Source: Betaproteobacteria bacterium | GTDB taxonomy: Bacteria > Pseudomonadota > Gammaproteobacteria > Burkholderiales > Thiobacillaceae | Assembly (NCBI GenBank): GCA_007280375.1 | Contig: QYQG01000048.1 | Location: 1-36,756, forward strand | Length of the DNA stretch: 36,756 bases | Direction of reading: 5' to 3' | Shown: positions 5,301-14,255 of the stretch, piece by piece | How the letters are laid out: every line of letters starts with the position of its first letter | Numbering within the stretch: position 1 is the first letter of the stretch | Made by a program: the position numbers and the translations under genes | The notes under the pieces: model-generated | Databases searched by the model: none | What the model was told of the DNA's origin: nothing | What the model saw: the letters and a program-made list of their open reading frames with translations, nothing else

Positions 5301-6047
5301 CTAGCCCGCCTTGATCGCCCGCTGCCGACGCGCCTCGTACAGACACACCCCGGCCGAGACGGAGACATTGAGACTTTCGACCTGACCCTGCATGGGGATC
5401 TTCACCAAGAGATCGCAATGTTCGCGGGTCAGACGGCGCAGACCATCGCCCTCCGCGCCTAGGATGAGGGCCGTGGCCCCAGACAGGTCGGCAGCAAAGA
5501 TCTCCAGCGTGCCCTCAGCATCGGCACCGACGATGAGGATGCCGTGTTCTTTCATCTCGCGCAGGCTACGCGCTAGATTGGTGACCGATAGAAAGGGGAT
5601 GCAATCGGCCGCGCCCGACGCGGCCTTGATCGCCACGGCGGTGAGACTAGCCGAACGATCTTTCGGCGCGATCACCGCGTGCGCACCGAAGGCCTCCGCG
5701 CTACGCAGACACGCGCCTAGGTTATGCGGATCAGTCACCCCGTCGAGGACCAAAAACAGGGGCGGCTCGGTCGTTGTATCCAAGACCTCCGCTAGGTTCA
5801 AGGCCAATTTAACCGGCTCAGCCAAGGCGATCACGCCCTGATTGCGTTTCGCCAGATCCGGCGCCATCTCGGTGAGACGCGCAGCGTCGGTGAGCACCAC
5901 ACGCACCCCCGAGTTTGCCGCCATTTGCACCAAGTCCTGCATCCGTTTATCGCGCCTATCCTTGTCCAGATAGAGTGTCTGGATGCTCTTGGGATGATGC
6001 CGCACCCGCGACCCCACCGCATGAAAGCCATGCAACACTTGTTTCAT
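5301..6047 (-). CDS. rlmB: 23S rRNA (guanosine(2251)-2'-O)-methyltransferase
   Basis: SpoU motifs LVLDGVTDPHNLGACLRSAEAFG, ALILGAEGDGLRRLT, IPMQGQVESLNVSVSAGVCLYE. Start moved to MKQVLHGFHAV because the listed upstream extension is read through a REP repeat. Confidence 0.93.
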   Translation of the reverse strand: MKQVLHGFHAVGSRVRHHPKSIQTLYLDKDRRDKRMQDLVQMAANSGVRVVLTDAARLTEMAPDLAKRNQGVIALAEPVKLALNLAEVLDTTTEPPLFLVLDGVTDPHNLGACLRSAEAFGAHAVIAPKDRSASLTAVAIKAASGAADCIPFLSVTNLARSLREMKEHGILIVGADAEGTLEIFAADLSGATALILGAEGDGLRRLTREHCDLLVKIPMQGQVESLNVSVSAGVCLYEARRQRAIKAG

Positions 6048-6068
6048 CTTAATCCTCGCCTGCGTCAG

Positions 6069-6137
6069 CGTAGGAGCGGGCTTGCCCGCGAATGGGGTGC
6101 GTTGCGATAGAGACCGTTTCGCGGACAAGGCCGCGAA
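6069..6137. repeat. REP-like element (cgtaggagcgggcttgcccgcgaa plus second hairpin)
   Basis: gcgggc-tt-gcccgc at 6076-6089 and ttcgcgg-6 nt-ccgcgaa at 6118-6137. The 24-mer 6069-6092 recurs as reverse complement at 13867-13890. Confidence 0.8.
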
Positions 6138-6170
6138 CAACAAGACGATTAACGGCTGGATTTAGGTTCA

Positions 6171-11264: not shown

Positions 11265-11452
11265 AACGCCACCTGCAACATCGCCACACCCAAGACCATC
11301 GAGATCAGCCCCATAAAACGGATCTGCCCAAGACGCAAGGTCGCCAGACGGGTAAAGGTCTCGCGCCAGACGGTCGGCGCGAGAAAAGGCATCACCCCCT
11401 CCATAATCAGCATCAGCGCCAAGGCCGGTAGCAAGATATCTTGCAGGCTCAC
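11261..11452 (-). CDS. DUF2065 (YjeT-like) small inner-membrane protein
   Basis: 63 aa, ALALMLIMEGVMPFLAPTVWRETF; typical hflC/purA neighbour. Confidence 0.85.
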
Positions 11453-12321
11453 TTCCCACCCTTGGGGGTATTCATGTAGCGGAAGAAGGCCGAATTCGGC
11501 TGCAACACGAGGACATCTTGCTTGTCCTTGAAGCTCGCCTTATACGACTCCATGCTGCGATAGAAGGCATAAAACTCGGCGTTCTTGCCGTAGGCCTTGG
11601 CGTAGATCGCCGCCGCCTTACCATCGCCCTCACCCTTGATGCGCTGGGCGTCACGATAGGCCTCGGCGAGGATCACCTCGCGCTCACGATCGGCCTCAGC
11701 CCTGATCTTTTCGGCCTCCGCACTACCGGTTGAGCGCAACTCGTTGGCGACCCGTTTACGCTCCGCCTCCATCCGCGAATAGACCGAACCGGAGACCTCC
11801 GCCGGCAGATCGACGCGTTTGACACGCACATCCAACACCTCGACCCCGAAGCGTTTGGCATCGGCATTGGCCGATTTACGCAAGGAGTCCATCACCGCGT
11901 CGCGCTCACCCGAGACGACATCGTGCACGGTGTATTTACCAAACTCAGCACGCATCCCGTCGTTGACCGTCTGCGCCAGACGATTGACCGCCCGCGCCTC
12001 GTCGCCGCCGAAGCTAACATAAAAGGTACGCACATCGGTAATCCGCCATTTGACGAAATAATCGACCAGCACATTCTTCTTTTCCGAGGTAATAAAACGC
12101 TCCGGATCGGCCGGGTCCAAGGTCATGATGCGGGTATCAAACTCACGCACATTCTGCACCAGCGGGATCTTGAAATAGAGGCCAGGTTTGAGCTTGGTAG
12201 CGACGATCTCGCCCAGCTGGAAGACCAGCGCGGCTTGCCGTTGATCGACCGTGAACAGGCTCATCGAGATCAGCATGAGACCACCCAACACGAGGGTTAT
12301 TAGGGTAGATAGGTTTTTCAT
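11449..12321 (-). CDS. hflC: FtsH protease modulator HflC (SPFH family)
   Basis: N-terminal TM, VDQRQAALVFQLGEIV, SPFH domain; follows hflK with overlap. Confidence 0.96.
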   Translation of the reverse strand: MKNLSTLITLVLGGLMLISMSLFTVDQRQAALVFQLGEIVATKLKPGLYFKIPLVQNVREFDTRIMTLDPADPERFITSEKKNVLVDYFVKWRITDVRTFYVSFGGDEARAVNRLAQTVNDGMRAEFGKYTVHDVVSGERDAVMDSLRKSANADAKRFGVEVLDVRVKRVDLPAEVSGSVYSRMEAERKRVANELRSTGSAEAEKIRAEADREREVILAEAYRDAQRIKGEGDGKAAAIYAKAYGKNAEFYAFYRSMESYKASFKDKQDVLVLQPNSAFFRYMNTPKGGK

Positions 12322-13622
12322 TAACGCACCTCGCGATCACGATTACGCAGGCTGTCACGACTGCGTGGCGGAGCGGCCTGCGGTACAGGAGGCGTGGCCT
12401 CGGGCACCGCAACCGGGGTAGCCGCAGCCGCCCCTGGCACCGACATCTGCATCAATTTGTCGATCGGCAGATAGAGCAACTGCTGACCCTGTTTACTATC
12501 GACCAAGACCTTGGTCGTGCTGCTCAAGATCTGCTGCATCGCGTCTTGATACAAGCGCTCACGCGTCACCTGCGGGGCCTTGGTGTACTCCGCTACGATG
12601 TAATTAAAGCGCGCCGCATCACCCTCGGCCGACACGATCACCCGTTGTTTGTGACCGTTCGCCTCGGCAATCAGGCGCGCCGCCAAACCGCGTGCCTTAG
12701 GCACCACATCATTGGCATAGGCCTGACCCTCGTTCTTCAAGCGTTCGCGGTCTTGACCGGCCTTCACCGCGTCGTCAAAGGCCGCTTGCACCTGCTCCGG
12801 CGGCTGGGCGTTTTGCAGGTTGACCTTGCTCACCGTCACGCCGATACGATAACGATCAAGCAGCGTCTGCATCAACTTCGTCGCCCGCACGGAGACATCG
12901 GCACGCCCCTCATAAAGCACATAGTCCATGCGGCTCTTGCCCACCACCTCGCGCATGGCGGATTCCGCCACCTGCATGACGGTCTCGTCCGGATTACGGT
13001 TGGTAAACAGGAAGTCCTCGGGGTTTTTAAGCACATATTGCACCGAGAATTGCAGGTCGATGATGTTCTCGTCATCGGTCAACATCAAGGATTTGGACAG
13101 GTTTTTGGACTTCACATTACGCCGATAGCCGACCTCGGCCATGCGCACCTGTTCAATGTTAACGGTCTCGACCGACTCGAAGGGGTACGGCAGATGCCAA
13201 CGCGGGCCCGGCATCGTCGAATCACTAAATTGACCAAAACGCAGGACCACGCCGCGCTCACCGGCGTTAACGATGTAAAAGCCCGAGGCCAACCACAAGG
13301 CGACGACGATGCCGACCAACACGCCCACGCCCGGCAGACGAATCTGCGGCATCTGCGGCCGGCCACGCGGCGGCGTCCTAGGCGGGATCGGCGGCGGCTC
13401 ATTGCCGCCATTGCCGCCATTGCCGCCATTGCCGCCATTGCCGCCATTACCATCATTGCTACCGTCATTATTACCACCCGTACCCGGTGGACGCGCAGCC
13501 GGATCACGGCCGAACATCCCGTTCAAACGGTCGTTCAAACCCTTCCACAACTCATCAAGATCGGGGGGGCCGCCGTCATTTCCCTTGCCGCCTTTGTCCC
13601 CATTGGGTTCATTCCATGCCAT
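12321..13622 (-). CDS. hflK: FtsH protease modulator HflK (SPFH family)
   Basis: MAWNEPNGDKGGKG...GPPDLDELWKGLNDRL, Gly-rich N-terminus, TM and SPFH domain with GERGVVLRFGQF. Confidence 0.96.
   Translation of the reverse strand: MAWNEPNGDKGGKGNDGGPPDLDELWKGLNDRLNGMFGRDPAARPPGTGGNNDGSNDGNGGNGGNGGNGGNGGNEPPPIPPRTPPRGRPQMPQIRLPGVGVLVGIVVALWLASGFYIVNAGERGVVLRFGQFSDSTMPGPRWHLPYPFESVETVNIEQVRMAEVGYRRNVKSKNLSKSLMLTDDENIIDLQFSVQYVLKNPEDFLFTNRNPDETVMQVAESAMREVVGKSRMDYVLYEGRADVSVRATKLMQTLLDRYRIGVTVSKVNLQNAQPPEQVQAAFDDAVKAGQDRERLKNEGQAYANDVVPKARGLAARLIAEANGHKQRVIVSAEGDAARFNYIVAEYTKAPQVTRERLYQDAMQQILSSTTKVLVDSKQGQQLLYLPIDKLMQMSVPGAAAATPVAVPEATPPVPQAAPPRSRDSLRNRDREVR
13401..13445. repeat. 9-bp tandem repeat (attgccgcc)x5 encoding (Asn-Gly-Gly)n in HflK
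   Basis: Five perfect contiguous 9-nt units followed by degenerate units. Confidence 0.9.
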
Positions 13623-13630
13623 CGTCTATC

Positions 13631-13832
13631 TCATTCTCTAAAGTGTTGTCTGGGGCTACATCCATCGCGTCCGGGTTCTGGGGTTGCCCGCTGCGCCAAC
13701 GCAAACTCGGTTAGTGCCGCACGCAAACCATCCAGACCCGCGCCGGTCTTGGCGCTCAAAAAACGCGCCCAATCTTACCATATTCATCCCGCACCACACC
13801 GACCTCGCGCCCGTCACGATCTTATTCATCAT
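13631..13832 (-). pseudogene. hflX: hflX GTPase remnant (C-terminal end, frameshifted)
   Basis: Minus-strand reading in three frames: MMNKI (G4-like), DRDGREVGVVRDEYGKIGRVF* (13756-13821), LSAKTGAGLDGLRAALTEFALAQRATPEPGRDGCSPRQHFRE* (13631-13759). The last contains a G5-like SAKTGAGLDGL. Lies between hfq and hflK, where hflX normally sits. Confidence 0.85.
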
Positions 13833-13866
13833 TGCGAAGGTTCTTGCGGTTCTCGCTGCCGCAGTG

Positions 13867-13930
13867 TTCGCGGGCAAGCCCGCTCCTACGGCCGTGCGTA
13901 GCTGCCACCCTGTAGGAGCCTGCGTGCTGG
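13867..13930. repeat. REP-like element (ttcgcgggcaagcccgctcctacg + cctgtaggagcctgcgtgctgg)
   Basis: 24-bp identity in reverse complement to 6069-6092; gcgggc-aa-gcccgc hairpin. Confidence 0.8.
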
Positions 13931-13982
13931 AGAACCGCACTGGACACTTACGCAGCGATCAAAGCGGGATGCCGACGAGGGC

Positions 13983-14255
13983 TTAAGCGGCAGGCTCGGC
14001 CGTCTCTTGAGGTGCTGCATCTTGCGTCGCCGACTCCGTCTGACGGAACAGCACCGGGCGCGACGGCACGATGGTCGAGATGGCGTGTTTATAGACCATC
14101 TGGCTGATGGCGTTTTTTAGCACTACGACATAGGCATCGAACGACTCGATATAGCCTTGCAGTTTGATTCCGTTGACCAAATACACGGAACACGGCACCT
14201 GTTCTTGCGCCAACGCCGCGAGAAACGGGTCTTGTAGCATCTGCCCTTTATTCAT
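13983..14255 (-). CDS. hfq: RNA chaperone Hfq
   Basis: [62 protein letters not shown]. Confidence 0.99.

Follow-up and report, generated by a model that had tools for sequence, protein, structure and literature searches.

A multicopy repeat element at the breakpoint of an hflX pseudogene between intact hfq and hflK in a genome of the Thiobacillaceae

Results and Discussion

The stretch of DNA analysed here (36,756 nucleotides, hereafter the window; contig C14 of a 1.38-Mb, 102-contig genome with an estimated completeness of 89.9%) was found to carry an hflX gene that, judging from its sequence, is a real pseudogene and cannot make HflX. Only the last 218 bp of the gene were present, on the minus strand between intact hfq and intact hflK; about 1.0 kb was deleted, the remaining sequence was broken into three frames, and a multicopy repeat element ended exactly at the breakpoint. 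An element-associated deletion is the best explanation overall, with a probability of about 0.75. The hflX loss was observed on a single MAG contig, in one genome of the species.

The hflX remnant

To describe the locus, we compared the window with four other genomes of the same genus, and used the intact hfq-hflX-hflK locus of three of them (G001, G003, and G004). In all three, an intact hflX gene was located between hfq and hflK, which bears out the hfq-hflX-hflK-hflC order that a preliminary description had taken as canonical. At the place occupied in these congeners by an hflX gene of about 1.2 kb, the window exhibited an interval of 360 bp (13623-13982), whose DNA matched the 3′ end of hflX from G001 (E = 1.0e-18, 77% identity), G004 (1.4e-16, 77%), and G003 (4.4e-16, 80%). 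All three matching genes were situated at the same place; chance similarity was ruled out by these E values (1e-18 to 4e-16) at a syntenic place in three congeners.

The alignment to the sister genes (77-80% identity) extended from the NKI codons of the G4 motif through the hflX stop, thus defining a remnant at 13609..13826 (minus strand) that comprised the G4-G5 end of the G domain, the C-terminal tail, and the stop codon, spread over three frames. The first 4 bp of the remnant, AATA, overlapped the end of the repeat element and may be assigned to either. The preliminary description, which had reported about 200 bp of hflX-like sequence in three frames, was right as to length and frames; the interval that it delimited (13631-13930) contained most of the remnant and of the element, but the true remnant runs from 13609 to 13826, hflX stop included. 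When the whole hflX DNA of G001 was in turn searched against the genome of the window, it matched positions 13706-13826 (3.2e-18), with a weak second match of its last 21 bp at 13612-13632. A stitched reading of 57 amino acids had its best match to the HflX profile NF008280 (positions 317-360; E = 0.0016).

Two frame breaks were observed relative to all three sisters: a net loss of 4 nt directly past the NKI codons, and the loss of 1 nt in a homopolymer (T6 in the remnant versus T7 in each of the sisters), the latter corresponding to the break previously placed at a run of six A/T. Read accuracy at this homopolymer is irrelevant to the loss of function, since about 1.0 kb of the gene is missing anyway. 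The missing part corresponded to the N-terminal domain and motifs G1-G3, as had been claimed. Compared with the operon of the HflX GTPase (TIGR03156/NF008280), the locus was therefore alike in position, in the homology of its last 218 bp, and in the hflX-hflK overlap shared with the congeners, but differed in having neither the N-terminal domain nor G1-G3 and in its two frame breaks.

At sites where the sisters are unanimous, substitutions specific to the remnant were distributed as 4/7/9 over the three codon positions, which is a small sample. This split differed from that of hfq compared with G001 (5/2/29; Fisher p = 0.015), and showed no significant difference from that among the hflX ends of the sisters themselves (3/1/8; p = 0.29). 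The pattern leans towards relaxed constraint, within the limits of this small sample. A short expressed protein was also considered, namely the 94-aa open reading frame at 13656-13940 (minus strand), and was rejected: it matched no NCBIfam family, and the coding frames were broken.

Neighbouring genes

The genes on either side of the remnant were intact, in agreement with the preliminary description. The hfq gene (13983..14255, minus strand; 90 aa) gave full-length profile matches (PF17209, 1.3e-26; NF001602, 121 bits versus a cut-off of 95) and was 84-85% identical in DNA to hfq of the three congeners over 227 bp. The hflK gene (12321..13622, minus strand; 433 aa), with HflK_N and Band_7 domains, likewise matched its profile over its full length (TIGR01933, 308 bits versus a cut-off of 159) and was 85-87% identical to its counterparts in the three congeners; hflC (11449..12321, minus strand) was recognized as intact from its position and its Band_7 domain (PF01145, 1.8e-33). 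The hflX stop and the hflK start overlapped over 14 bp (13609..13622, minus strand; ATGGCATGGAATGA), and this retained overlap had the same sequence in all three sisters as in the window. The HflK protein of the window measured 433 aa versus 418-423 aa for the open frames of the three congeners, and a tandem Gly/Asn repeat (GCCGCCATT units; 13395-13455) was observed in the N-terminal part of hflK.

HflX elsewhere in the genome and in the order

A relocation of hflX to another locus was ruled out by searching the assembly with both profile and DNA queries. The HflX profile search retrieved other GTPases only, none above the cut-off, and the hflX DNA of G001 matched convincingly at the remnant alone, in the window and in the assembly as a whole. 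Neither the N-terminal HflX domain nor sequence of G1-G3 was found, by profile or by DNA, in the assembly (89.9% complete). Among the congeners, G002 (C18) and G004 (C59) were also found to encode a second HflX-like protein of 476-478 aa near uvrB, the gene following uvrB either directly or one gene further. The C-terminal 143 aa of UvrB had no match in the assembly of the window genome, whose uvrB region probably falls in the unassembled part; because this neighbour of the second paralog was not found, we make no claim that the genome lacks HflX-family proteins altogether.

We then surveyed a further 398 genomes from the order, all selected for a completeness of ≥95%. HflX was present in 391 of these (approximately 98%) and missing from seven. 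In one of the latter (G444; one contig, 1.7 Mb), the interval separating hfq from hflK contained an hflX split over several frames (G444:C1:1270389 region). Two others (G156 and G194) had kept hflK, with no hfq or hflX in the 1.5 kb examined upstream, and the remaining four had no good match to hflK either. The pseudogenes of G444 and of the window both remain at the usual position of the gene, flanked by hfq and hflK, with hflK kept; however, G444 retains most of the gene in shifted frames, whereas the window retains 218 bp. The two are independent of each other. Loss of hflX in the order is thus uncommon, recurrent, and evidently tolerable. HflX is described as a heat-induced rescue factor that splits ribosomes and that E. 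coli can do without when growing normally (PMC9067457). A literature search for hflX loss through a repeat returned nothing specific. The present case is one of ordinary gene decay, well resolved and with an instructive breakpoint, which calls for no new biology; it provides an example of a conserved stress-translation gene leaving its operon with the neighbours undamaged, and of a small mobile repeat located precisely where a lost gene breaks off in a small-genomed betaproteobacterium.

The repeat element beside hflX

Between the remnant and hfq, we identified a MITE-like element of about 140 bp with a REP core (13823..~13964, minus strand), on the basis of an alignment of eight copies and a match to their consensus. 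Window positions 13823-13959 corresponded to consensus positions 6-140, at 88% identity. The right end of this copy, proximal to hflX, was intact (CGCAATGATGAATA), with one mismatch in its terminal inverted repeat (TIR), while the first 5 bp or so of the left end, proximal to hfq, were diverged or lost. The element contained a GTAG-tagged REP core, GTAGGAGCGGGCTTGCCCGCG (13869..13889, minus strand; exact match), and the same 24 bp were present on the plus strand at 6069-6092. The preliminary description had noted this 24-bp identity, which is indeed a 100% match; what it had described as a REP unit is merely the core of the longer element. The core at 6069-6092 is a single one, without element ends, and is situated shortly before the probable actual start of a gene on the minus strand (5301-6143) that looks like an rRNA methyltransferase.

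The aligned copies shared the ends TATCAATCGTTGCGTAAG and CTTCGCAATGATTAATA, which are mutual inverted repeats over about 14 bp, and exhibited in their middle an inverted pair of GTAG-tagged palindromes, the consensus presenting CGCCAGCACGCTGGCTCCTAC and GTAGGAGCGGGCTTGCCCGCG in facing orientation. In the copy at hflX, the first REP of this pair was degraded. For the window copy, a single long hairpin was predicted (-66.2 kcal/mol, z -3.5). Searching the window genome with the consensus retrieved many fragments as well as complete or nearly complete copies, of which there were at least seven; several copies were located between genes or at gene ends. Two further copies (C19:15902-16083 and C20:1805-1998) carried the same ends with a different palindromic core. 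In relatives, the consensus matched in parts around the REP core only, and the exact TIR pattern had no match in the other 116 genomes of the family that were searched. Intact copies exhibited TA at both ends, with no unambiguous empty site for a target-duplication test.

Between the element and the hfq stop, an 18-bp spacer was read directly (13965..13982, minus strand), compared with an hfq-hflX spacer of about 50 bp in the sisters. It gave no convincing alignment to the sister spacers or to the start of hflX; its reading as a 5′ remnant of hflX (ALVGI) was discarded, the sequence being too short for support.

Junction and possible course of the deletion

The right end of the element (GATGAATA) met hflX (AGAT...) without any intervening base, and the break in hflX, inside the codons of G4 (NKxD), coincided with it to the base. 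At this site, the sisters have AATAAG (G001), AACAAG (G003), and AGCAAG (G004), so the terminal TA is found in G001 alone; a TA target duplication at the junction is possible.

From an ancestral hfq-hflX-hflK-hflC locus, such as that of the congeners, the window could have arisen as follows. The multicopy TIR element with its REP core would have come to lie in hflX at the G4 codons, after which the sequence of about 1.0 kb separating the element from the end of hfq, with the N-terminal domain and G1-G3, would have been deleted. The deletion may have occurred by recombination with a second copy of the element in the hfq-hflX spacer or, alternatively, as an adjacent deletion starting from the left end of the element towards hfq. 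Both routes predict the picture observed, since two-copy recombination leaves one complete element with its outer flanks and an adjacent deletion does likewise; the left end, in which the first 5 bp or so are diverged, falls short of demonstrating a clean recombination between two copies. The remaining 218 bp would then have drifted, with the net 4-nt loss and the slip from T7 to T6, and the overlap with the start of hflK would have spared the 3′ part of hflX, at least partly. Loss of hflX by deletion, as initially proposed, is supported by the three intact congeneric loci, by the searches of the assembly for another HflX, and by the frame breaks. As for the suggestion that the deletion was possibly repeat-mediated, it gains from the multicopy TIR element ending exactly at the breakpoint; either route may have been taken.

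Involvement of the element is the best explanation because its end and the break in the gene coincide exactly. That hflX was deleted or decayed independently beforehand, the element inserting later at the edge of the remnant, seems to us rather unlikely. Copies located between genes or at gene ends are compatible with such a late insertion, which a pseudogene would readily accommodate; however, the base-exact match at the breakpoint would then be due to chance alone, and the 88% identity of this copy to the consensus, versus 93-96% for the best other copies, suggests an old rather than a recent insertion. We consider very unlikely an assembly artefact, in which near-identical copies of the element flanking part of hflX were collapsed and the missing 1.0 kb is still in the cell. 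The contig does cross a multicopy repeat of about 140 bp in a 102-contig assembly, but the skipped segment should form a contig of its own, and the assembly (89.9% complete) yielded no HflX N-terminal or G1-G3 sequence. Even then, the element would interrupt hflX, and both the frame breaks of the remnant and the divergence of the element copy (88%) speak against a collapse.

It is extremely unlikely that the element and the remnant act as an RNA hairpin or leader tuning the expression of hflKC from the hfq transcript. The strong predicted fold would fit such a role, and transcripts of REPs and MITEs have been reported to affect neighbouring mRNA (PMC3733652), but such folding is to be expected of palindromic repeats of this type at any location. 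Moreover, the hflX/element junction was seen in no other genome, and the interval yielded no site resembling a promoter or a terminator.

Relation of the element to known repeats

The element combined features of two known classes of repeats. Like the REPINs and GTAG REPs associated with RAYTs (PMC3116915, PMC3733652), it had the GTAG tag, a palindromic REP, and an inverted pair in the consensus, in a genome that encodes RAYTs. Two RAYT (PF01797) genes were identified, each near matching REPs: one at C19:892-1227, with a REP of the first type (REP-A) about 30 bp past its stop, and the second on C51, flanked by the other REP type. Unlike in REPINs, the REP pair was enclosed in a longer unit with its own TIRs of about 14 bp, and the same ends also carried a different REP core in the C19 and C20 copies. 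With bacterial MITEs (reviewed in PMC10969869), the element shared a length of about 140 bp, TIRs (TATYAATCRTTGCG ends), dispersed copies in intergenic positions or at gene ends, and no evident coding capacity. The window genome (G000) contained both RAYT genes and the REP-bearing element. Neither was found in G001, G003, or G004, and in G002 RAYTs were present without the element. A wider reading appears improbable, in which a species-restricted composite element, a MITE with an exchangeable REPIN core, would be an active source of gene deletions and hflX one of several genes removed.

Other copies were also observed in close association with genes. At C44:4676 and C19:15902, upstream open frames ended within the terminal TATTAA of the element, which may thus supply a stop codon to neighbouring genes. 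The end of the second-core copy at C20:1805-1998 was followed by TTGACAAAGGGG and abutted a -35-like TTGACA ahead of a gene resembling HU, so that its insertion may have shaped the promoter of that gene.
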